This document shows, piece after piece, positions 2,821 through 33,828 of a stretch of DNA of 64,000 nucleotides. The DNA comes from Bacillota bacterium (lineage in GTDB: Bacteria; Bacillota; SHA-98; UBA4971): assembly GCA_024653485.1 (NCBI GenBank), contig JANLFY010000003.1:1-64000 (forward strand), given 5' to 3'. The first letter of the stretch is position 1. Every line of letters starts with the position of its first letter. The position numbers were made by a program, and so were the translations under genes. Below the pieces are notes generated by a model, which was not told where the DNA came from, made no database searches, and was given only the letters and a program-made list of their open reading frames with translations.

Positions 2821-4299
2821 CTATAATATGATGCAGATGAGCCCGCCACTGCCCTCATTGACGATCTTCTGAAGAGTCTCCTGAAGTTTCTGTTGCGCGT
2901 TCTCCGGCATTCTATAGAGCTTGCTCTCGATGCCCTCTTTCACCAGCTCGTGCAGGGACTTCCCCAGGAAGTCCGTGTTCCAAATGCGATCGGGGTCCTT
3001 CTCGAACTCCTCCGATAGTCGCCTGACCAGCTCCTCCCCTTGCCTTTCCGTCCCCACGTTCGTCGTGACCTCTGTCTCGATGTTCGCCCTGATCATATGG
3101 ATGGACGGGGCCGACGCCTTGAGCCTCACGCCGAACCGGCTGCCCTGCCTGATGAGCTCCGGCTCCTCGAACGTGAGCTCATCGAGGAGCGGCATCACTA
3201 TGCCGTACCCAAGCTCACGCGCGTCTCGCAAGCCATCGGCTATCTTGTCGTACTCCCTCTTTGCCGTGGATAGCTCCTTCATAAGCCGCAGGAGATGGTG
3301 ATCGCTCTCTACCTCGAGACCGCTCACTTCCTGGAGTACCTGGAAGAACAGGCTCCTCGGCGCGTCCAGGTCGATGACCACTGAGCCTGTGCCCAATTCC
3401 ATCTTCGTGAGATCCGCCGAGGATACGAACTCCTCTCCGGACAGCCTGTTCACGACGGTGTGGATATCGCGTATCCTCTTGACTTCCTTCACCGTCGTGA
3501 CGACGGCTTCCTGGAACCTCTGCCTTGCCCAGTGATCCTCTGCAAGCTCACCCAGCCAGACAGGCAGCCGCACGCTCACCTCGCGAACAGGGAACTCGTA
3601 GAGCACTTCGCGCAAGACACCCTTGACGTCCTCCACGTCCATACGCATGCAGTCGAGGGGGATGACCGGTACCTGGTACTTTTGGGACAAGTCGGTGGCA
3701 AGGTCCTTAGCCTCTCTCGACCACGGTGCCACAGAGTTGAGGATCGCGACGAAAGGCTTGCGCAGCTGGCGCAGCTCCGCTATGACCCGCTCTTCCGCCT
3801 GCGCGTAATTCTCCCTCGGGATCTCGGTGATCGAGCCGTCCGTCAGTACGACCAGGCCGATGGTCGAGTGGTCCGCTATCACCTTTCTCGTTCCGAACTC
3901 GGCCGCGTCCTCGAACGGGATTTCGTAGTCGAACCACGGCGTCACGACCATCCTCGGGCCGGCTTCGTCCTCGTACCCGAGCGCTCCCCTCACCGTGTAG
4001 CCGACACAATCAACGAGCCTGACCCGGACCTTGACGTTGTCTTCGAGCTCGACTTCCACGGCCTCGCTGGGCACGAACTTGGGCTCGGTGGTCATGATGG
4101 TCCTTCCGCCACCGCTCTGCGGGAGTTCGTCCACAGAACGCTGTTTGTCGTACATGTCGGAGATGTTCGGAAGTACCAGGAGGTCCATGAAACGTTTGAT
4201 GAACGTGGACTTGCCCGTTCTGACCGGCCCGACCACTCCGATGTAGATATCGCCGCCAGTTCGTGTGGCGATGTCCTGGAAGATGTCGAACGTCTCCAT
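2821..4299 (-). CDS. spoIVA: Stage IV sporulation protein A, spore coat basement-layer ATPase
   Basis: A 492-residue protein, the same length as B. subtilis SpoIVA, that polymerises around the forespore using ATP and anchors the coat. The N-terminus [17 protein letters not shown] and the Walker A GPVRTGKS (residues 24-31, Lys30) are present. The segments [24 protein letters not shown] and the hydrophobic C-terminal end are all conserved; the C-terminus binds SpoVM at the membrane. The start at 4299 has GGGAGG about 8 bp upstream, and a longer in-frame start at 4320 is rejected on homology. It is a single-gene unit with a terminator behind it and a possible sigma-E promoter in front. It shows the organism makes classical endospores. 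Confidence 0.97.
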
Positions 4300-24103: not shown

Positions 24104-25756
24104 CTACCTGCGTAGGATGCCTGAGCTACGAAGGGCGTGAGCGAGCGGACGTCCTATGAGCGGGATGGCGGCGACCTCCCGCTGCGCGATCTCGCCCAGG
24201 ACGAGGAGGATGAACCCGTAGAGAGAGGCGCCCACGGCGATCGCCGCGACTGTCGCGACGGAGTTTCTGTAAGTATACCCGAGTAGAAGCCGGTATACGA
24301 TCTTCACGGCCGGGACCATAGCCGCGCAACCCGCGACCACGCGCCATCCTGAGCTCAGCAAGCGTATCCCCTCTCCCGTGGCTCGGGCCACCGCGACCGT
24401 GTTCAGCGCGCCCGCGACAAGGAACGCCAGACCCGTCCCGAAGGCCGCGCCCCTGATACCGATCCCGGGAACCGCCGTGAGGACGTAGTTCACGCCTCCC
24501 GCCAAGACCGCGCCCACAAGCCCGTTTCTCGCAGGCACCAGCACCTTGCCGAAACCGTTGAGGACGCCCGCGGTGGTCTGTTGCAGACAGAAGAAGACCG
24601 ACGCGAACGCCATGGCGGACAGGGGCACCCCACCCGCCGGATCGTTGAAGAGCAGAGAGCAAATCTGAGTAGGAAGCACGCCAAGACCTGCGGCAGCCGG
24701 GAGGCCCAACACGACCGCGCTCCTCACCGCCTGTCTAGCCAAGCGCCTCGCGCGCCGCGCCTCGCCGCCCGCGTCCGCCGCCGCCACTTGCGGCACCAAG
24801 TTTGTGGCCACCGCGGCAGTGACCACTCCGGGAAGGGCGACGAGTCCGACGGCCATGACCGCAAGGTGTCCGTATAGCCTCGTTGCTTCTGTCACCGCGA
24901 ATCCGGCTTGCTGGAGGCGGGCCGGCACTATCAAAGCGTTGATCGTGTCGAGGAGAGGGATGACGAGCGCTGCGAGAGTCGTGGGTCCGGCAAGCGACAA
25001 GAGCTGCCGAAGGGTCGCCCATGAGGTGGCGAGGGGACGCGGCTTGCGCGCTAGCCTCGAGCTTCGCCGCGGAGCCCTTCGCATCCGTGACGACGCCCTC
25101 CCAAACCGCGAACCCGCGCCCTCCTTCGCCGACTCGCAATAGAAGGCGGCCAACATGCAGAGGCCGACCACGGCCCCGGCCACGCCGCCTGCGGCTGCTC
25201 CCCCGGCTGCCCAGTGGACGCCTCTAGGAAGAAGCGCGTATGCAAGCCCGAGGCCCGCCACGACCCTAACAACCTGCTCCGCCACCTGTGACACTGCCGT
25301 GGGCACCATGGTTCGGTGGCCCTGAAAATACCCTCGAAGCACGCCGGCCACCGGGCTGACCAGTAGGATTGGGGAAAGGAACCGCATCGGCAAGTATGCC
25401 CTTGGGTCTCCGATCAGCGTTGCGCTGAGGAGATCCGCCCCCTCGCGCAGCGCAGCGGCCAGGATGCCCCCGACGGGTATGACGAAAGCAAGGCATACTA
25501 GGAGGACTTGTCTTGCGCCATCGCGGTCGTTCTTCGCAAGGCGTTCCGCCACGAGCTTCGAAGTAGCGACCGGGAGACCCGACATACACAGCACGAGCGC
25601 CAGCGTGAACACAGGCGACGCCATGTGGAGCAAGCCAACCCCCTCGGCTCCGATGAGCCGGGCGAGGGGTATGGTGAAGAGCGCGCCGAAGATCTTGGTA
25701 ACGACCGCGGCGGCCACGAGGATCGCGGTCCCCTTGAGAAAGGACTCGGGCTTCAT
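24104..25756 (-). CDS. spoVB: Stage V sporulation protein B-type lipid flippase (MVF/MATE family)
   Basis: A 550-residue polytopic membrane protein with about 14 hydrophobic helices. It opens with LKGTAILVAAAVVTKIFGALFTIPLARLIG (spread over residues 6-37), the SpoVB/MurJ-like start, and contains GVLRGYFQGHRTMVPTAVSQ, the hallmark of the SpoVB group. The family moves lipid-linked glycan precursors; SpoVB is required for spore cortex synthesis. A strongly basic insertion (about residues 214-243, many Arg/Lys/Ser) sits in the large cytoplasmic loop and looks lineage-specific. MurJ-like or other SpoVB paralogues remain possible. It is followed closely by the promoter region of miaB. Confidence 0.86.
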   Translation of the reverse strand: MKPESFLKGTAILVAAAVVTKIFGALFTIPLARLIGAEGVGLLHMASPVFTLALVLCMSGLPVATSKLVAERLAKNDRDGARQVLLVCLAFVIPVGGILAAALREGADLLSATLIGDPRAYLPMRFLSPILLVSPVAGVLRGYFQGHRTMVPTAVSQVAEQVVRVVAGLGLAYALLPRGVHWAAGGAAAGGVAGAVVGLCMLAAFYCESAKEGAGSRFGRASSRMRRAPRRSSRLARKPRPLATSWATLRQLLSLAGPTTLAALVIPLLDTINALIVPARLQQAGFAVTEATRLYGHLAVMAVGLVALPGVVTAAVATNLVPQVAAADAGGEARRARRLARQAVRSAVVLGLPAAAGLGVLPTQICSLLFNDPAGGVPLSAMAFASVFFCLQQTTAGVLNGFGKVLVPARNGLVGAVLAGGVNYVLTAVPGIGIRGAAFGTGLAFLVAGALNTVAVARATGEGIRLLSSGWRVVAGCAAMVPAVKIVYRLLLGYTYRNSVATVAAIAVGASLYGFILLVLGEIAQREVAAIPLIGRPLAHALRSSGILRR

Positions 25757-25788: not shown

Positions 25789-27432
25789 TCATGCCAAGAG
25801 ATGCCTACCGCGATCCGAGCCGCGGGCTCGGCGGGGTTTCAGGACGACTATGGGCGTCTGCTGGTCGTCGTTGCCGAAGGGGTTGTGAGCCAAGGCGCGG
25901 GCCAGCCAGTCGGTCTTCCCCTGCAACGTCGACCCCAGCACATCGACGCACCCGAGGTCGTTGACGTCGACCACCACGGTGTCCACTCCCGTGGCTTTGC
26001 GGACCTCCCTCGCCACCTCGTCGGGGTTTGCTGGCCCGAGTATGACGTGTTTGTCGTACGGCGGCATAGTGCCGGCGATGTCATCGATCTGAGCTAGAGA
26101 GCGCCCGGCCACCCGAAAGAAGTCCCCCCTTCGTCCGAGCAGCCTCCCAACGCCCGCCGCTGCCGTGCCAAGGAGCACCTTTGTCGCGCCAGCTTCACGC
26201 AGGGCGAGTTCCATCGCGGGCGGCGTCGCGAGGCTTCCGTCTTTGCCCGGAAGCTTGCACAGCATCCGAGCGAGAGGTCCTGGATGCACGGAGCCCGGGA
26301 GCACCGCCCTGCCCTGCGTGATCGCGACGACGCTCTCGGCGAGCGCCACTACGTCGCCCGGACGGGCTATCCCCCGAACGTACCTCCGCACCACGTCCGC
26401 GATTCGCTCATTCTCTCCGATGATATGAGTCCGTATGGGAACCGCTTCCACGCACGCCGGCGCTTTCGCGGTCCTCTCCGTCCGCGCGGCGTAGTCGGCT
26501 CCTCCCGGTCGAGCGGCCGTGTTGTCGGCGCGGTCCGCTGCAATGCGACCCTCCCGGTCCGCGAAGTATCGCTTGAGGCCGATCATGATGGCGGACGCGG
26601 CCCTCTCCTTGAACGTGCTGCTTCTAAACCACCCCTCTTCCACCCAGTTGGTGAGGGTGGCGACCTCAACGAACACGCAAGGCATGCCCGGGTCGCTTTG
26701 TGGCTTCATTGAACACCTGGCTACGCCCCTTGTCACCACGGGCAGCTTGGCGACTATGGAGGATTGGACGTGCCTGGCCAGTAGCTCGCTTTCGGCGTCA
26801 GGAAAGTGCAGCGTGCGCGCGCCCGCGATGGCGCGGTCGCGGGAACCGAAGGTGTGGACGCTCACGAAGGCGTCGCACATGGCCTCCCTCGCCAGTGCGA
26901 ACCGCTTCGCGGCGGGGACGCCTTGATCAGAGGTCCGCGTCATGACCACGCCTGCTCCCGCGAGGGAAAGCCGGGTGGAGAGCAGGCGCGCTATCTCCAG
27001 GGAGACGTTCTTCTCCAGCAGGTTCACGGGGCCTCGCTCTCCCGTGTCGCTTCCGCCGTGCCCCGCGTCCACCGCCACCGTCTTGCCCTCGAAAATGGCG
27101 CGGATGGGACTCCTGTCGAAGTCCACCACCAGCCGCGCGGGCATCCCGGCCGATTCCGTTATCGTCCACAAAGGAGAGTGCTCGAGCCTTACCAAGACCT
27201 GTGGGTGCGGCGGCCCTGCGTTCACCGTCACGTGTGTCAGGAGACCGTCGTTCACTGCTATGGTCGCGGGGGCCATGGCGAGTTCGCAACCTGGGAGGTC
27301 TATACGCACTTGTTCAGGGGACAGCGCGCGGACGCGATGGTGGACCGGAAGCGTGGCTTCGACGACGAGGCGCGAGACCATCCGGCGACAAACCGAGTCT
27401 GCGAACTCCGTAGCCCAAACGTTCGTGACCAA
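25789..27432 (-). CDS. Fusion: N-acetylmuramoyl-L-alanine amidase + F420-0 gamma-glutamyl-ligase-like domain
   Basis: One open frame carries two unrelated domains. The first is an AMIN-like beta segment followed by an Amidase_3 catalytic domain: VAVDAGHGGSDTGERG (zinc His), LEKNVSLEIA (zinc Glu), VSVHTFGS (zinc His) and FVEVATLTN (catalytic Glu). A linker leads to a CofE/F420_ligase-like domain with PGDVVALAESVVAITQGR, IDDIAGTMPPYDKH, VDVNDLGCVDVL and NPFGNDDQQTPIVVL. I chose the TTG at 27432 (GGAGA upstream) because longer starts overlap the MoaD-like gene; no signal peptide is apparent. The amidase would cut peptidoglycan; the second domain's substrate is unknown, as F420 is not general in Bacillota. 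Confidence 0.8.
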   Translation of the reverse strand: MVTNVWATEFADSVCRRMVSRLVVEATLPVHHRVRALSPEQVRIDLPGCELAMAPATIAVNDGLLTHVTVNAGPPHPQVLVRLEHSPLWTITESAGMPARLVVDFDRSPIRAIFEGKTVAVDAGHGGSDTGERGPVNLLEKNVSLEIARLLSTRLSLAGAGVVMTRTSDQGVPAAKRFALAREAMCDAFVSVHTFGSRDRAIAGARTLHFPDAESELLARHVQSSIVAKLPVVTRGVARCSMKPQSDPGMPCVFVEVATLTNWVEEGWFRSSTFKERAASAIMIGLKRYFADREGRIAADRADNTAARPGGADYAARTERTAKAPACVEAVPIRTHIIGENERIADVVRRYVRGIARPGDVVALAESVVAITQGRAVLPGSVHPGPLARMLCKLPGKDGSLATPPAMELALREAGATKVLLGTAAAGVGRLLGRRGDFFRVAGRSLAQIDDIAGTMPPYDKHVILGPANPDEVAREVRKATGVDTVVVDVNDLGCVDVLGSTLQGKTDWLARALAHNPFGNDDQQTPIVVLKPRRARGSDRGRHLLA

Positions 27433-27583
27433 GGGCTTCTCCAAACGCGTCCACCCCGTCCGGCGCAAGTCTCGTGTCGCCGGAAAAGGCGACACATTAC
27501 ATGGTATGCCCGGACGGGGTGGTTCGACACTGCGGCTTTGCCGCATGCCATGTCGGGGAAGCGGCTTGCGCGACGCAAGGAGG

Positions 27584-27817
27584 CTACCCTCCTGAGACGG
27601 GCGGGAACACCGCCACTCGGTCTCCCGCGGACAGCTTAGTCGAAGCACCAGCCACCTTTCCGCCGACAATGACTATCCCCCATAGCCCCTGAGCGAGCCC
27701 CGCAGCGGCAAGTGCGTCACCCACGGTGGCCCCATCGGGAAGCACCAATTCCATCGTCTCTGCCAGCCCCGGCCTCATGGCCACCAGGACTCTGGACACC
27801 TCTAGCGTAACCTTCAT
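27584..27817 (-). CDS. MoaD/ThiS-family sulfur-carrier-like protein
   Basis: A 77-residue beta-grasp protein. It has the MoaD-like pattern (LPDGATVGDALAAAG, then AGDRVAVFPPVSGG) and ends in the Gly-Gly tail that is adenylated and thiocarboxylated in MoaD and ThiS. It directly follows the aldehyde oxidoreductase gene with a 4-bp overlap, so it likely supplies sulfur for the dithiolene cofactor of that enzyme. Dedicated MoaD-like genes next to tungsten AOR genes are common in anaerobes. Confidence 0.82.
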   Translation of the reverse strand: MKVTLEVSRVLVAMRPGLAETMELVLPDGATVGDALAAAGLAQGLWGIVIVGGKVAGASTKLSAGDRVAVFPPVSGG

Positions 27818-29676
27818 GAGATTCGCCCCATCGCCAGGAGTTCTTGAGCGACTTCGGGGAGCCCCAGTCTCTCCAGGGTCTTCGCGGTTGGCCGCCCGTT
27901 CCTATCCCATCCCCTCAAGTCATAGTACTCGTCGAGGAGCCTGTCGAGGTCCTCGCGAGTAATGCGCGACCCGGCAAGGGGACCGTCCGGGACGGGTTCG
28001 GTATAGAATCTCTTGGGCGGTTGGTCGTCCGGCCTGCCGAAGTCCGCCCTCTCGCGCACACCGAAGGCGCGCACCAGATTCCATATCCGCTCTGACTTGG
28101 CGAGCAGGTCCTCCCACGTGTCTTGACGACCCGTCACCGCAGGGTAGAGCCTGGCGTAGTGCTCGAGCGGAACTCCCAGTTCCACCCACTGCAGCCGGCA
28201 CACGCCCAAGCAGTCGAAGAGCGGCCTCACGTGTTGAAGCTCGATCACCTTAGCGGCCTTTCCCTCGATCACTTTGCGGCCGACGGCGATATCATGGGTG
28301 ATGGACCACGCCCTGTTGTGGTGAGCGCCTATGTCGCACGTCATGTACGCCAGCATCATCGACGGCGCGCCACGAGACTCGTATCCGCTCCACTCCAGGC
28401 CTTTTACATGGATCGCGAAGTCCTCGCTTCCTCCTCCCCATGCCTGCGCGGCAGCCTTGACACCTCTCGAGAGGGGTTCCCCTATTCCCTTACGCGCTGC
28501 TATCAGCTTTGCGATTTCTACGAACGCGTCCAGGCTGCCGAAGCGCGCCTCGATTCCCGAAGACTCTTCTTTCGTGATGATGCCTCTCTCGAAGCATTCC
28601 ATTGTGAACGCTACGGCGCTGCCCGCAGAGATGGTGTCCATGCCGAGCTCGTCGCATATGTAGTTGGCGTACGCGACTTCCTCTATTGACCCCAGCGCGC
28701 AGTTGCTTCCAATCAGAGCTGTGGTTTCGTATTCGGGGCCTTCCAGGAACACCGTCTCACCTTTGTATCTCGCTCGGCAGAACTTGCCCGTGGCCATGGG
28801 GCATGCAAAGCACGCCTTGTCGCGCACGTGGATGTCGCTCAGCATGCGCTCACCGCTGAGGGCGTCCGCTCTCTCGTAGAAGTTCTGCCTGAAGTTCCGA
28901 GTCGGCAGGGCTCCAATGGAGTTGGACCACGTGGTCACCTGAGCGAGCCCCTGGTCTTGCCAGACCTTGAGCGCGGGATTCGCGGCCAGCGAAGCGAACA
29001 TCTCTCCCGCTGCCTTCCGCAGCGCAGCCATGTCGGCCACAGGGACGCCTCGGGAGCCTCGCACTGCGATGGCCTTCAGATTCTTCGACCCCATGACCGC
29101 CCCCATGCCGCAGCGCCCCGCCTGCCGACCTATGTCATGGTTGACCGACGCGAAGACCACCATGTTCTCGCCCGCGGGACCGATGGTGGCTATCTGGAAC
29201 TCCTCGCCAAGTTCATCCTTGAGGGCCTTCTCAGACTGTATCGCGCCCTTACCCCACAGCTTCTTGCACGGGCGAATCTCGACCCTGTCGTCGTCTATGA
29301 AAAGATACGAGGGCACCGGCGCTCTGCCTTCCACTATGACGGCGTCGTACCCCGCGTACTTGAGTTCACCCGCCAGGTGACCTCCGATGTTGCTGTCGCC
29401 GTAAAGTCCTGTCGCGGGGCTCTTTGATGAGAAGCTCGTCTTGGCGCCGCTCGGCAGGAACACTCCTGAGAACGGCCCGGCGGCCACCACCAGCTTGTTG
29501 TCGGGGCCAAGCGGATCCGTTCCTGGAGGGACTTCCCGGTAAACGAAATAGGCGCCGAATCCCCGCCCGCCTATGTACCCATCCACCAATTCCTCATCGA
29601 GCGGCTCCTTGGATGCTGTTCCCGTGGATAGATTGACCCTCAGAATGGACCCCGCGTATCCGAACGTTCCGCTCAT
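27814..29676 (-). CDS. aor: Aldehyde:ferredoxin oxidoreductase (tungsten/molybdenum bis-pterin)
   Basis: A 620-residue cytosolic enzyme that oxidises aldehydes to acids (or the reverse) with ferredoxin. The N-terminal pterin-binding domain has GYAGSILRVNL, the GGRGFGAYF loop, FSSKSPATGLYGDSNIGGH and GRCGMGAVMGSKNLKAI. The cluster region reads CFACPMATGKFC (C289, C292, then C300): the third Cys of the usual CxxCxxxC is a Thr (296) and a Cys appears four residues later. A fourth Cys comes from the later DCLGVC. This looks like a divergent AOR branch. The gene is coupled on both sides to the ferredoxin and MoaD-like genes. Confidence 0.9.
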   Translation of the reverse strand: MSGTFGYAGSILRVNLSTGTASKEPLDEELVDGYIGGRGFGAYFVYREVPPGTDPLGPDNKLVVAAGPFSGVFLPSGAKTSFSSKSPATGLYGDSNIGGHLAGELKYAGYDAVIVEGRAPVPSYLFIDDDRVEIRPCKKLWGKGAIQSEKALKDELGEEFQIATIGPAGENMVVFASVNHDIGRQAGRCGMGAVMGSKNLKAIAVRGSRGVPVADMAALRKAAGEMFASLAANPALKVWQDQGLAQVTTWSNSIGALPTRNFRQNFYERADALSGERMLSDIHVRDKACFACPMATGKFCRARYKGETVFLEGPEYETTALIGSNCALGSIEEVAYANYICDELGMDTISAGSAVAFTMECFERGIITKEESSGIEARFGSLDAFVEIAKLIAARKGIGEPLSRGVKAAAQAWGGGSEDFAIHVKGLEWSGYESRGAPSMMLAYMTCDIGAHHNRAWSITHDIAVGRKVIEGKAAKVIELQHVRPLFDCLGVCRLQWVELGVPLEHYARLYPAVTGRQDTWEDLLAKSERIWNLVRAFGVRERADFGRPDDQPPKRFYTEPVPDGPLAGSRITREDLDRLLDEYYDLRGWDRNGRPTAKTLERLGLPEVAQELLAMGRIS

Positions 29677-30075
29677 CTAGCTCGCCACCCTTCCCGCGAT
29701 GGCCAGGGCGTCAAGGACTCCCCTTGGGCAGAGGGCTGCGCACTCCCCGCACGCGACGCACTTGATGGGGTGGCCGACTTCGGGATGCGTGAAGAGCGCG
29801 CCGTTAGGACATGCCTCCACGCACACCCCACAATTCGTGCACGCTCCCTCGTCTATCACTACGACGCCACGCTCAACAGAGATAGCTCCCACCGGGCACG
29901 AATCCACGCACCCGCCGCATTGGTCGCACACGACGACGTCGTACCTCGCGTCCAGAAAGAGCCTGGAGATCACTCGAATGCCCGCCTTCTTGGGGTTGTT
30001 CTCTCCGAAGTTCTCGACAGAGCACACGAGCTCGCAGAGCCTGCAGCCCGTGCACCTGTCCAGGTCAAGTTTCAC
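29677..30075 (-). CDS. Polyferredoxin partner of AOR (four [4Fe-4S] motifs)
   Basis: A 132-residue HycB/FdhF-type electron-transfer protein. Four Cys-rich motifs are seen: CTGCRLCELVC at the N-terminus, CDQCGGCVDSCP, CTNCGVCVEACP and CVACGECAALCP, suggesting up to four cubane clusters. It ends one base before the aor start, so it is the electron-carrying small subunit of the AOR-type enzyme. The protein has no signal or Tat motif and is cytosolic. Confidence 0.91.
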   Translation of the reverse strand: MKLDLDRCTGCRLCELVCSVENFGENNPKKAGIRVISRLFLDARYDVVVCDQCGGCVDSCPVGAISVERGVVVIDEGACTNCGVCVEACPNGALFTHPEVGHPIKCVACGECAALCPRGVLDALAIAGRVAS

Positions 30076-30193
30076 TCTCGCTCCCTCCCCCGAAGATAGG
30101 TAATGGACACGGACCTCGGTCCGCCGGCCCTCGGGCTCATCCTCGATGCGAAAGCGGGGCGCCGGGACCTAGGCACGGCACGACTCCATACCT

Positions 30194-31338
30194 CTATACG
30201 ACGGATGGCTCCACCACGAGCTCGCCCCGCTCGAACCTGCCCAGGTCGAGGCCGGTCACGTCCACGCACGGCCTCTCGTCGCAGATGATCTCCGCAAGCA
30301 GCCGGCCGGTGACCGGAGCGAGCATGAAGCCGTGCCCTGAGAACCCGCAGGCAAGGTAGAAGCCCTCGACCGGCGTCGCACCCAGGATCGGGTGGGCGTC
30401 CGGCGTCATGTCGTACAGCCCCGCCCATTGTCTCACGACCTTCAGGGTCCGAAGGGGCGGCAGGATCCTCGTGATCTCACGCGCCATGTCGACAAGGAAC
30501 CTCCAGCTGCTCTCTGTGTTGAACCCGTGGGGCTCCTGCGGATCACCCATCCCCATGATGAAACTGCCGTGTGGGGTCTGCTGGCAGTACACGCGCCGAG
30601 AGAAAGACATCACCATCGCCGCAGCGCGGGCTCCACAGGCTCCGTCACGAGGATCTGGTGACGCTCCGCCCAGAAGGGGATCTCGAGGCCCGCCATGGCG
30701 GCCACTGCCCCCGAGTGCGGTCCCGCGGCGTCGACCACCACCGGCGTGTCAATGCTGAACTCGTTGCAGTGGACCCGCACAACCTTGCCTTTCTCGACCA
30801 CGATCCCCCTCACTTCGGTGAAAGTCATGACTTTCACGCCGAGCCTATGCGCTGCGTGCGCATAAGCGTACGTCACGTGAAAGGGGTTTGCGTGCCCGTC
30901 TGTGGGACAGTACGCGGCGCATAGCACGTCGCTTGCGTTCAGCATCGGGACTATGGCCTTTGCCTCGGCGGGGGTCAGGAGGCTCGCGGGTATTCCCAAG
31001 CTGCGCTCGAGCTCCACATTCTTGATGAACTGGTTCATCTCGCGATCGGTGTATGCAAGGAGCAGGTAGCCACCTTGTTTGAACTCGATGCTCCGGTCGT
31101 ACTCAAGCTCGTCGTCCATGCGCTCGAACATCCGCACGCTTTCCCGGGCGAGGACGCAGTTCAGCTTGGTGCCCCACTGCTGGCGAACTCCCGCGCCGCA
31201 ACGTCCCGTGGACCCGCTGGCAAGATATGATCGCTCCACGAGGAATATGCGGCCGAACCCGCGTTTTGCCAGATGGTACGCAATGGACGCCCCCACCACT
31301 CCCCCGCCTATCACCACGGCGTCGGCGCGCTCATTCAT
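30194..31338 (-). pseudogene. FAD-dependent amine/proline dehydrogenase-like subunit, one-base frameshift
   Basis: Two adjacent frames together make one glycine/D-amino-acid-oxidase-family protein of about 380 residues. The N-terminal part (30610-31338) has the FAD motif VIGGGVVGASIAYHLAKRG and ends ...EPALRRW-stop. The C-terminal part (30194-30616) continues with MVMSFSRRVYCQQTPHGSF and CGFSGHGFMLAP, as in intact relatives. Between CTGCGG and ATGGTG there are two bases where three are needed, so one base is missing near 30616. It may be a true mutation, a sequencing error, or two proteins coupled by the stop/start overlap. It is the last gene of the five-gene cluster. Confidence 0.8.
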
Positions 31339-31699
31339 CGCAATCACCCTCGCACCCCGCCTCTTCGCGACCGGGGCTCGCGGCGGCCGCGCCGCCGAGG
31401 CGCACGGGCTTGGTGGGCGGTCTGAACTTCGTCGGCGCGACGGAGGCCATGTCCTTCCCCGTTGCCCTGGCTATTTCCGCCAGAACGAGCTGCCTACACG
31501 TTCTGCCTTGACAGGGCCCCATTCCGCACCTGGTGATCCGCTTGATCTCTTCGAGAGTGGAGTATCCTTTCGCCAAGAGATCACGAACCTCGTCGAGAGT
31601 GACGTCCTCGCAGCGGCAGATGACGGTAACGTCGTCTGCCACCCCGGACCCGGCCTTGCCGCGGGAAGCACGCTCACTCTCAGACCTCACGCGACCCAC
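31331..31699 (-). CDS. BFD-like [2Fe-2S] protein
   Basis: A 122-residue protein with a bacterioferritin-associated-ferredoxin-like domain. The cluster cysteines occur as CRCEDVT and CGMGPCQGRTC, typical of the small subunit of multi-subunit amine/proline dehydrogenases (the delta-type subunit in Thermococcus PDH1). The C-terminal tail is Pro/Ala/Glu-rich. The start is a GTG at 31699 with GGAGGGAG upstream, overlapping the ferredoxin gene; the last bases overlap the start of the FAD subunit. It passes electrons between the FAD and iron-sulfur subunits. Confidence 0.82.
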   Translation of the reverse strand: MGRVRSESERASRGKAGSGVADDVTVICRCEDVTLDEVRDLLAKGYSTLEEIKRITRCGMGPCQGRTCRQLVLAEIARATGKDMASVAPTKFRPPTKPVRLGGAAAASPGREEAGCEGDCDE

Positions 31700-32186
31700 C
31701 CCCGCTCCCTCCTACCCGGATGTGCCTTACTTCCATGGAAAGGGACTTCGGTACCTCCACCCACACCACGGTCGTCCTGTCGTGCTTTGCCGACCTTTCG
31801 ACCTTCACCACCCTCGCCGCGCACCTCTCTTGGCCCGACCTATCCAGTCCGGCCACCTCATCCCCGGGCGACGGCACCGGCAAGAACTCATACGGCAATC
31901 TGACGACGGCGAAGTCGTCTTTCCAAGTCTCGTCTACCACGAAGATCGCAAGGCCGGGGCATGCCGGTATGCAGGCTCCACAGCCGTTGCACACATCGAA
32001 GTCCACCTCGGGAAGATGGTTTATCTGACTGAACGGGCGGATCGCTCCACGCCGACACGCGTCGTGGCAGGGGTCGCACGGGATCTCCTCGAAGCACTCA
32101 ATCGCAACGCACGGCCCTCGTGAGCGTCTGCCCTGATCTGGGATCCTGCCCCGAGCCCTCGCGTCGAGCCACGCCGCGTCAGGCAA
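31680..32186 (-). CDS. [4Fe-4S] ferredoxin-like electron-transfer subunit
   Basis: A 168-residue protein. The N-terminal motif ECFEEIPCDPCHDACRRGAI and the second motif CNGCGACIPACPGLAI supply two [4Fe-4S] sites, and the C-terminal half folds as a beta domain (AKHDRTTVVWVEVPKSL). It resembles the gamma-type subunit of dye-linked L-proline dehydrogenases. The start is a TTG at 32186 with AAGGGAGG 9 bp upstream, overlapping the stop of the preceding flavoprotein gene; this is a strong TTG start. Confidence 0.82.
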   Translation of the reverse strand: MPDAAWLDARARGRIPDQGRRSRGPCVAIECFEEIPCDPCHDACRRGAIRPFSQINHLPEVDFDVCNGCGACIPACPGLAIFVVDETWKDDFAVVRLPYEFLPVPSPGDEVAGLDRSGQERCAARVVKVERSAKHDRTTVVWVEVPKSLSMEVRHIRVGGSGGGSREV

Positions 32187-33291
32187 CTACGCCGACCTCC
32201 CTTCCGAGGCGCATGAGCCGATCTATACCCTTACGCACCTTCTCGCCCTTCGGACCTGCACGAAGCGCGTCGAGCTGCGCCCTTGCAGTCGCGAGCATCT
32301 CCTCGGAGTCCCGCGTAGAGTGCCCAAGGGATCGCGCCGCGGCAATGCCGGCGATGGTGCCCTCGATCATCGCGGACGATGCCTCCTCGATGCCCGCAAG
32401 GTCACCTGCAACGTAGATGTCCGGGCGCGAGGTTCGGTAGTCCTCGTCCCTGATGGCAACGTGTCCACCCAGCTCCGGAATGTAAGCCATCTTACACCCC
32501 GCCTGCCAGAGGAGATCCGCCAGAGGCGCAAGCCCAACCGCAAGGCATACCGTGTCAACCTGGAAAGCACGTTCCGTCCCCGGGATCGGTTGAAAGTCGC
32601 TTCCAAGCGCCCACACGCAGGCAGCCTCCACCGTCCTCGCCCCGTGGACTGCCTTGACCGTGTGAGAGGTCAGGATCGGCACTCCGGCCCTCCGAATCTT
32701 TCGCGCGTGCACGTCGTACCCGCCGACCTCGGGCATGGCCTCGACAACCGCTGCCACCTCAACGCCTGCCTGCAACAGCTGGTAGCTGACGATGAGGCCT
32801 ATGTTGCCCGCCCCAACCATGAGCACGGATTTTCCTGGCCTGACCCCGTACACGTTCATGAGGGTCTGGACCGCCCCCGCCCCGTACACCCCGGGGAGAT
32901 CGTTCCCCGGGAAAGCGAGCATCCTTTCGGAAGCTCCGGTCGCGCACACCATACACGCGGGCTTGATGAAAGTGAGAGAGTCCTCGTGTTCAATGCCCAT
33001 GGCGCCGTCATCGTAGATCCCTATGACCGTGCTTTCCAGCATGAGGTCGACCATGGGGTCGTTCTCTATCTGTGCGGCTAGGATTCGCGCGATGTCCATC
33101 CCACGCTTGCCTGCGAACTGCCCCCTCGACCCGAAGAACTTGTGGGTCTGCTTGACAAGCTGCCCCCCGGGCCTGTCGCCCGAGTCCACGCAGGTCACCT
33201 GAGCTCCAGCGCGTCGAGCGGCGATCGCAGCGCACAAGCCCGCCGGTCCCGCGCCTATCACGCAGATCTCAGTCGTTCGCAAGGAGCACAC
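32179..33291 (-). CDS. NAD(P)/FAD-dependent oxidoreductase (alpha-type subunit)
   Basis: A 370-residue two-dinucleotide-domain flavoprotein. The FAD motif CVIGAGPAGLCAAIAARRAG is at the N-terminus; the second nucleotide motif VLMVGAGNIGLIVSYQLLQAG lies near residue 175; and VYVAGDLAGIEEASSAM is the FAD-closing motif. This is the HcnB/sarcosine-oxidase-alpha-like electron-transfer subunit. I chose the GTG at 33291 with GAGGAAAGG just upstream; a TTG at 33282 is an alternative. It overlaps the [2Fe-2S] gene by 23 bp, so the two are tightly coupled. Confidence 0.86.
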   Translation of the reverse strand: MCSLRTTEICVIGAGPAGLCAAIAARRAGAQVTCVDSGDRPGGQLVKQTHKFFGSRGQFAGKRGMDIARILAAQIENDPMVDLMLESTVIGIYDDGAMGIEHEDSLTFIKPACMVCATGASERMLAFPGNDLPGVYGAGAVQTLMNVYGVRPGKSVLMVGAGNIGLIVSYQLLQAGVEVAAVVEAMPEVGGYDVHARKIRRAGVPILTSHTVKAVHGARTVEAACVWALGSDFQPIPGTERAFQVDTVCLAVGLAPLADLLWQAGCKMAYIPELGGHVAIRDEDYRTSRPDIYVAGDLAGIEEASSAMIEGTIAGIAAARSLGHSTRDSEEMLATARAQLDALRAGPKGEKVRKGIDRLMRLGREVGVVA

Positions 33292-33592
33292 CCTTTCCTC
33301 TCTGAGTCTCGACACGCATGCCCTCGCGCAGCTTCTCCACGCACACCCTCACGTTCGGCCTGCCGTCCACTGTCATCAGGCATGAGGAGCAGTTCCCGAT
33401 GGCACAAAAGAAGCCCCTGGGCCTCTTGAGCTTGGGGCTTTCTCGCAGCACTCGAACGCCCGCGGCGTGCAGGGCAGCGGCTATGGGCTCTCCCTCATAC
33501 CCCTCGAGTTCCCGCCCGTCGAACGTGAAGCGTACCTTCTTGCCCTCCCTGAACTCCAAGATGGGATGGGCAGTGATCCTAGCGTCAGTCAC
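33269..33592 (-). CDS. [2Fe-2S] Fer2_4 subunit (HcnA-like)
   Basis: A 107-residue protein with a plant-type ferredoxin fold. FDGRELEGYEGEPIAAALHAAG is followed by the cluster cysteines CAIGNCSSC and a later VCVEK, as in HcnA and the N-terminus of sarcosine oxidase alpha. The start is the GTG at 33592, behind an AGGGGGG-type site; a longer in-frame start at 33745 would add unrelated sequence. It is the first gene of the five-gene dehydrogenase cluster, which begins about 240 bp after recN on the same strand. Confidence 0.85.
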   Translation of the reverse strand: MTDARITAHPILEFREGKKVRFTFDGRELEGYEGEPIAAALHAAGVRVLRESPKLKRPRGFFCAIGNCSSCLMTVDGRPNVRVCVEKLREGMRVETQRGKGVLLAND

Positions 33593-33828
33593 CCCCGCTT
33601 CCGCCCCCCTCTCTCGCGCGACCAGCCTTGACCCCCCGGAGCACGCTCGAAGCCCTCTTGCGGCCGAGATGACCGACGGACACACGTCGTGGTCCGCCGT
33701 AGCGGATGCCCGAGGCCAACAGGGCACGAGCGCGAGTTGGCGCACCGAGGTAGTTATTCGCTACTGTGCGGTGATCTCCTCTTGCGGTGCTATACGAGCT
33801 TCGGAAGGCAGCGAGCCAGGCGACGGTC

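Follow-up and report, generated by a model that had tools for sequence, protein, structure and literature searches.

The window analysed here, the whole stretch of 64,000 nucleotides from a Bacillota bacterium, carries on its minus strand a single gene in which an AMIN-like domain and an Amidase_3 domain are joined to a domain resembling the F420 ligase CofE. The features of the locus, in window positions, are as follows.

25789-27444, minus strand: fusion open reading frame, AMIN-like + Amidase_3 + CofE-like, 551 aa, TTG start
27097-27438, minus strand: AMIN-like N-terminal domain by structure match, residues 3-116
26554-27090, minus strand: Amidase_3 domain, residues 119-297, with H129, E144, H197 and E260 intact
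26458-26553, minus strand: linker, residues 298-329, poorly conserved, with low pLDDT at residues 317-325
25825-26457, minus strand: CofE-like (F420_ligase) domain, residues 330-540, the best conserved part of the protein
27445-27510, minus strand: upstream region with a genus-conserved element, GCATA[GC]CATGTAATGTGTC, a possible promoter
24104-25756, minus strand: SpoVB/MurJ-like flippase gene, 32 bp downstream of the fusion and on the same strand

The frame is open from the TTG through to the stop codon, so that the single uninterrupted frame claimed in a preliminary description of this DNA holds. Its start had been placed at 27432, which is four codons (12 bases) inside the gene; because the first residues of the relatives are conserved in alignment as [ML]-E-x-P-x-[VI]TN, the start is assigned to the upstream TTG at 27444. 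Twelve of the 13 family genomes carry the fusion (55-79% identity), as do 16 of the 17 in the class, which span three families and five genera; the sole genome of the class that lacks it is 88% complete. This recurrence rules out an assembly join or frameshift between the domains, the artefact that had been raised as a concern. In genome G012, a split match corresponded to a single open frame of 537-539 aa.

Pfam recognises Amidase_3 in the fusion protein with E=1.4e-32, and also F420_ligase, whose E=3.5e-8 corresponds to 33.7 bits where the gathering score is 25. Both domain assignments made earlier from the sequence were upheld, the first with all zinc and catalytic residues in place (H129, E144, H197 and E260) and the second also by the match of its AlphaFold2 fold to 2PHN. 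In the AlphaFold2 model of the full-length protein (mean pLDDT 89.6), residues 3-116 match AMIN-type domains (PilQ B2/AMIN) at Z ~12 and residues 119-297 match Amidase_3 structures at Z ~29. Modelled alone (mean pLDDT 89.4), the CofE-like domain matched 2PHN at Z 15.1 over 182 of its 211 residues, with the next unrelated fold at Z 4.3; within the full-length model it matched 2PHN at Z 15.5. The folds of the amidase portion and its four catalytic residues are those of the AMIN-Amidase_3 amidases AmiC, CwlV and CwlD. Unlike these, the window protein has no signal peptide-like N-terminal hydrophobic stretch by simple hydropathy, is fused to a ligase domain, and has close relatives that include zinc-less forms. 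The protein scored 83 against the CwlD profile TIGR02883, below the cut-off of 221.55 bits, and the PHROGs matches of the protein were to endolysins and covered the amidase part only.

The C-terminal part shares its fold with CofE and the N-terminal domain of FbiB (2PHN, 7ULD) over 181-182 residues at Z 15, and similarity in sequence is also detectable, with Pfam above the gathering score and a relative matching 7ULD at E=8e-4. It departs from these enzymes in being ~20% identical, in its genome, which lacks a CofD match or a CofH over cut-off, and in its neighbours, as it is fused to or paired with an AMIN-amidase. Since it scored 17.8 bits against the NCBIfam CofE equivalog, far below the cut-off of 180.65, we regard it as CofE-like and not as CofE. 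Two Asp residues were taken to be the Mn ligands of CofE: the one in the DTN motif aligns with the invariant D493 of the fusion protein, and the other comes close to D454/D455 in the sequence alignment but does not coincide with them. Because the CofE metal site could be mapped only in part by sequence, a ligase activity of the CofE-like part is predicted from its fold and conserved motifs.

Such a domain could belong to ordinary cofactor glutamylation, as a true CofE (F420) or a FolC2 (folate) fused to an amidase by chance. Its CofE fold agrees with this, as does the precedent of CT611, the Chlamydia FolC2, a CofE homologue that complements folC (PMC1971073) and likewise works outside F420 biosynthesis. 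In the window organism's own genome, CofD had no match and CofH had a profile match only below cut-off, so an F420 pathway there is rejected, in line with the non-F420 role that had been suggested. CofD was over cut-off in none of the 24 pair-bearing genomes, described below. FolC was over cut-off in all 24, and in the window organism as well; the Chlamydia case, in which a folate ligase is missing, therefore does not apply, and no folate neighbours were seen. With a score so far under the CofE equivalog, and with a fusion and a pairing that are conserved, cofactor glutamylation is highly improbable. We found no papers in the open-access literature that connect homologues of CofE to peptidoglycan or to amidases.

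When a profile of the CofE-like domain was run against 299 sampled Bacillota genomes, 114 had relatives; others came from Patescibacteria, WOR-3, Thermotogota and elsewhere. These were split by profile score into a subfamily A, with the typical motif IDD-x-x-GT-x-x-P[YF], and a group B, with the typical motif IDGP-x-x-YTLPPYN. The window protein belongs to subfamily A, which a quick tree recovered as a clade with an SH-aLRT support of 96. Group B (L016-L019, L088-L144) comes from Patescibacteria, WOR-3, Thermotogota and Armatimonadota, and includes a second copy in genus g2.

Neighbours within 3.5 kb were scored in 62 A loci and 78 B loci with one set of in-house profiles, whose seeds came from A loci and which were applied alike to B loci. 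A gene with the Amidase_3 fold was near the CofE-like gene in 50 of the 62 A loci, including a few with signal-bearing or more distant amidases, as against 1 of the 78 B loci. Arginine-type decarboxylases were present in 28 A loci and no B locus, and, among the lipid II flippases, the SpoVB-like type in 19 and 2 and Amj in 7 and 0, respectively; group B as such has none of the wall or polyamine neighbours. Counting by taxon group reduces non-independence and gave amidase folds in 24, decarboxylases in 16 and flippases in 12 of 30 A groups, these counts being approximate as some groups are one lineage under two names. The decarboxylases belong to two unrelated families confirmed by Pfam, the pyruvoyl-dependent PvlArgDC and the PLP-dependent OKR_DC_1, which alternate as neighbours of CofE-like A; in the window's class, none adjoins the fusion.

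The fusion is thus one form of a conserved pair of a signal-less AMIN-amidase and a CofE-like protein of subfamily A. In relatives we found both the same fusion and neighbouring gene pairs: 24 of the 30 A groups have the two partners fused, side by side on one strand, divergently oriented or within a common operon, and tree position indicates at least two independent fusions, in the window's class and separately in G170. The link between fusion and flippase is conserved throughout the window's class. In Desulfofundulus, one operon holds a CwlD-like amidase, the AMIN-amidase, an L,D-transpeptidase, an Amj flippase, the CofE-like gene and an arginine decarboxylase.

An export signal is usual for wall-acting members of Amidase_3. 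By hydropathy, no N-terminal signal-like hydrophobic stretch was present in any of 30 AMIN-amidases, comprising the window protein and 29 partners. The four zinc and catalytic residues are intact in 24 of these 30, and one lacks the catalytic Glu only. In L159, L162, L165, L167 and L168 (families f66 and f23, plus L167) zinc ligands have been lost; these candidate pseudo-amidases still lie next to or near CofE-like genes. Since the amidase fold stays linked after the loss of catalysis, it is probably a binding module in these proteins. These observations bear on one form of the wall role offered in the preliminary description, in which the amidase would act on mature wall and the CofE-like domain would carry out its amide or gamma-glutamyl chemistry extracellularly, on peptide stems. 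The AMIN and Amidase_3 domains and the intact catalytic residues of the window protein are what this role would call for, but the proteins have no signal-like stretch, some partners are without zinc ligands, and a nucleotide-dependent ligase would be without its cofactor outside the cell. CwlC is released when the mother cell lyses, and such release would offer an escape; even so, we consider the extracellular role very unlikely. The wider proposal of a wall-related function separate from F420 fared better and is well supported by the amidase-fold partner, the SpoVB and Amj flippases and the MurI neighbours described below. The protein does not, however, resemble a secreted amidase, as neither it nor its relatives carry a signal-like stretch and zinc-less partners stay paired. 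The evidence favours chemistry on precursors in the cytoplasm and adds a link to polyamines, which the preliminary description had not seen.

In one clade nested in subfamily A, the amidase gives way to a protein of ~180 residues that has no Pfam or NCBIfam match; a single hydrophobic helix lies at its N-terminus, and positive charges come after it. The following are examples.

L173, 8046-8588: ~180-aa membrane-anchored partner
L176, 6950-7474: ~180-aa membrane-anchored partner
L184, 6455-7000: ~180-aa membrane-anchored partner
L241, 4770-5306: ~180-aa membrane-anchored partner

Because positive charges follow its helix, this partner probably faces the cytoplasm. L086 carries it as a fusion with the CofE-like domain. 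Homology of this protein to the AMIN domain had no support (hhalign probability 1%). The partner being either an amidase fold or a membrane-anchored protein, the CofE-like enzyme is linked in the one case to a fold that would recognise muropeptides and in the other to the membrane.

In G277, a member of this membrane-partner clade (family f31), a decarboxylase aligns without gaps and with few differences over 393 of 393 residues to 5gjm, which we take to be the lysine/ornithine decarboxylase of Selenomonas ruminantium. Based on this match, the class of G277 is almost certainly Negativicutes. The presence of BamA and absence of SpoIVA in families f31 and f61 support the assignment; the 5gjm structure is cited in PMC10628300. 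CofE-like A was found in 117 of 120 genomes of this class, and in 100 of the 101 of high quality. In 20 loci from 20 families of the class, the membrane partner is directly upstream of the CofE-like gene in every case, and the glutamate racemase MurI lies 0.6-0.7 kb upstream in 14. Near CofE-like A at L155:3663-6687 and L241:6132-9288, a hydantoinase/oxoprolinase-like gene is followed by a gene of the histone-deacetylase family, an arrangement seen in two distant lineages, the class of G277 and family f15. The histone-deacetylase family includes acetylpolyamine deacetylases.

The peptide stem in Negativicutes carries cadaverine or putrescine on the alpha-carboxylate of its D-Glu, and the polyamine on the peptidoglycan anchors the outer membrane through OmpM (PMC10628300, PMC12826042). 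The class in which this polyamination occurs (Selenomonas, Veillonella) is thus one in which CofE-like A is near-universal and has MurI as a neighbour. To our knowledge, and in the open-access text searched, no ligase gene for peptidoglycan polyamination has been identified. The window organism lies outside Negativicutes. SpoIVA, for spore coat and cortex morphogenesis, is encoded in the window (2824-4299, minus strand) and BamA elsewhere in its genome (G000:C1:50436-52034); these two genes mark the organism as a spore-former among the Bacillota that also has an outer-membrane marker.

The fusion, the pairing, the repeated decarboxylase and flippase neighbours, the zinc-less partners and the near-universality of subfamily A in the class of G277 are all observed; from them we infer, tentatively and at somewhat less than even probability, that the enzymes of subfamily A join a polyamine to a peptidoglycan precursor by nucleotide-dependent amide ligation, while the amidase fold holds the muramoyl-peptide. 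The window protein would be the fused form of a cytoplasmic pair of AMIN-Amidase_3 protein and CofE-fold ligase. CofE uses GTP for activation; the CofE-like part would likewise use a nucleoside triphosphate to activate a carboxylate, which it would then couple to an amine. The acyl substrate would most likely be a peptidoglycan precursor (UDP-MurNAc-peptide or lipid I/II), reacting through the free alpha-carboxylate of its D-Glu, and the amine would most likely be a decarboxylase product such as agmatine, putrescine or cadaverine. The amidase fold would mainly recognise and hold the MurNAc-peptide, and in the window lineage may still cut; the adjoining SpoVB-like transporter would then flip the modified precursor. 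With greater reserve, we suggest that CofE-fold A may be the missing D-Glu polyamine ligase for peptidoglycan precursors, acting with a membrane-anchored partner in Negativicutes and with an amidase-fold partner, in places a pure muropeptide-binding pseudoenzyme, in spore-forming Bacillota. Against a polyamine ligase, only about half of the A groups have a decarboxylase nearby, none adjoins the fusion of the window's class, and group B shares the fold without these neighbours. The association of CofE-like genes with Negativicutes is a class-wide coincidence and not a test. Most pairs are carried by monoderm spore-formers, from which we know of no polyaminated peptidoglycan.

The decarboxylase neighbours, drawn as they are from two unrelated families, could also reflect a soluble gamma-glutamyl-polyamine metabolism in which glutamate is joined to agmatine or another polyamine and the wall neighbours are incidental. 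CofE activates the gamma-carboxylate of Glu in its later steps, and the hydantoinase/oxoprolinase-like and deacetylase-family neighbours in two lineages would suit such a pathway. The AMIN-amidase fold, the flippases, MurI and the membrane-anchored partner would all be left unexplained, and we consider a soluble pathway unlikely.

A further analogy starts from the first reaction of CofE, in which Glu is attached to F420-0 at its phospholactyl carboxylate to form a lactyl amide, the kind of bond that Amidase_3 cleaves. The pair might by analogy edit the lactyl amide of muramic acid in sporulation, with the amidase stripping the stem and the ligase adding an amino acid to the lactyl carboxylate. 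CwlD-like amidases (L075, L154), a YhcN/YlaJ lipoprotein (L165) and SpoVB-like flippases occur nearby, and SpoIVA is present in all 22 sampled pair-bearing genomes; the base rate of SpoIVA is, however, high, at 249 of the 299 sampled genomes, and non-sporulating Negativicutes keep the ligase near-universally. A strong link to sporulation alone was rejected on these two grounds. Several partners that have lost zinc ligands cannot cut, and the link to decarboxylases would go unexplained, which together make lactyl editing quite unlikely.

Genes annotated as 'F420 ligase' occur in many bacteria that have no F420, and under the precursor-ligase proposal one large group of these would gain a concrete role in wall-precursor chemistry. 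If true, the proposal would supply the enzyme for peptidoglycan polyamination, the outer-membrane anchor via OmpM in diderm Firmicutes. The modification would then extend far beyond its presumed range and is predicted in spore-formers; we know of no search for it in these organisms.

Two observations concern the surroundings of the gene. The upstream region at 27445-27510 contains a small palindrome, gtgtcgcc-ttttcc-ggcgacac, and the CATA..AT of its conserved element may resemble the -10 boxes of sporulation sigma factors. Further upstream, at 27814-33745 on the minus strand, lie genes that by sequence resemblance encode aldehyde:ferredoxin-oxidoreductase-like, ferredoxin-like and FAD-dependent oxidoreductase proteins, a block that looks unrelated to the fusion.
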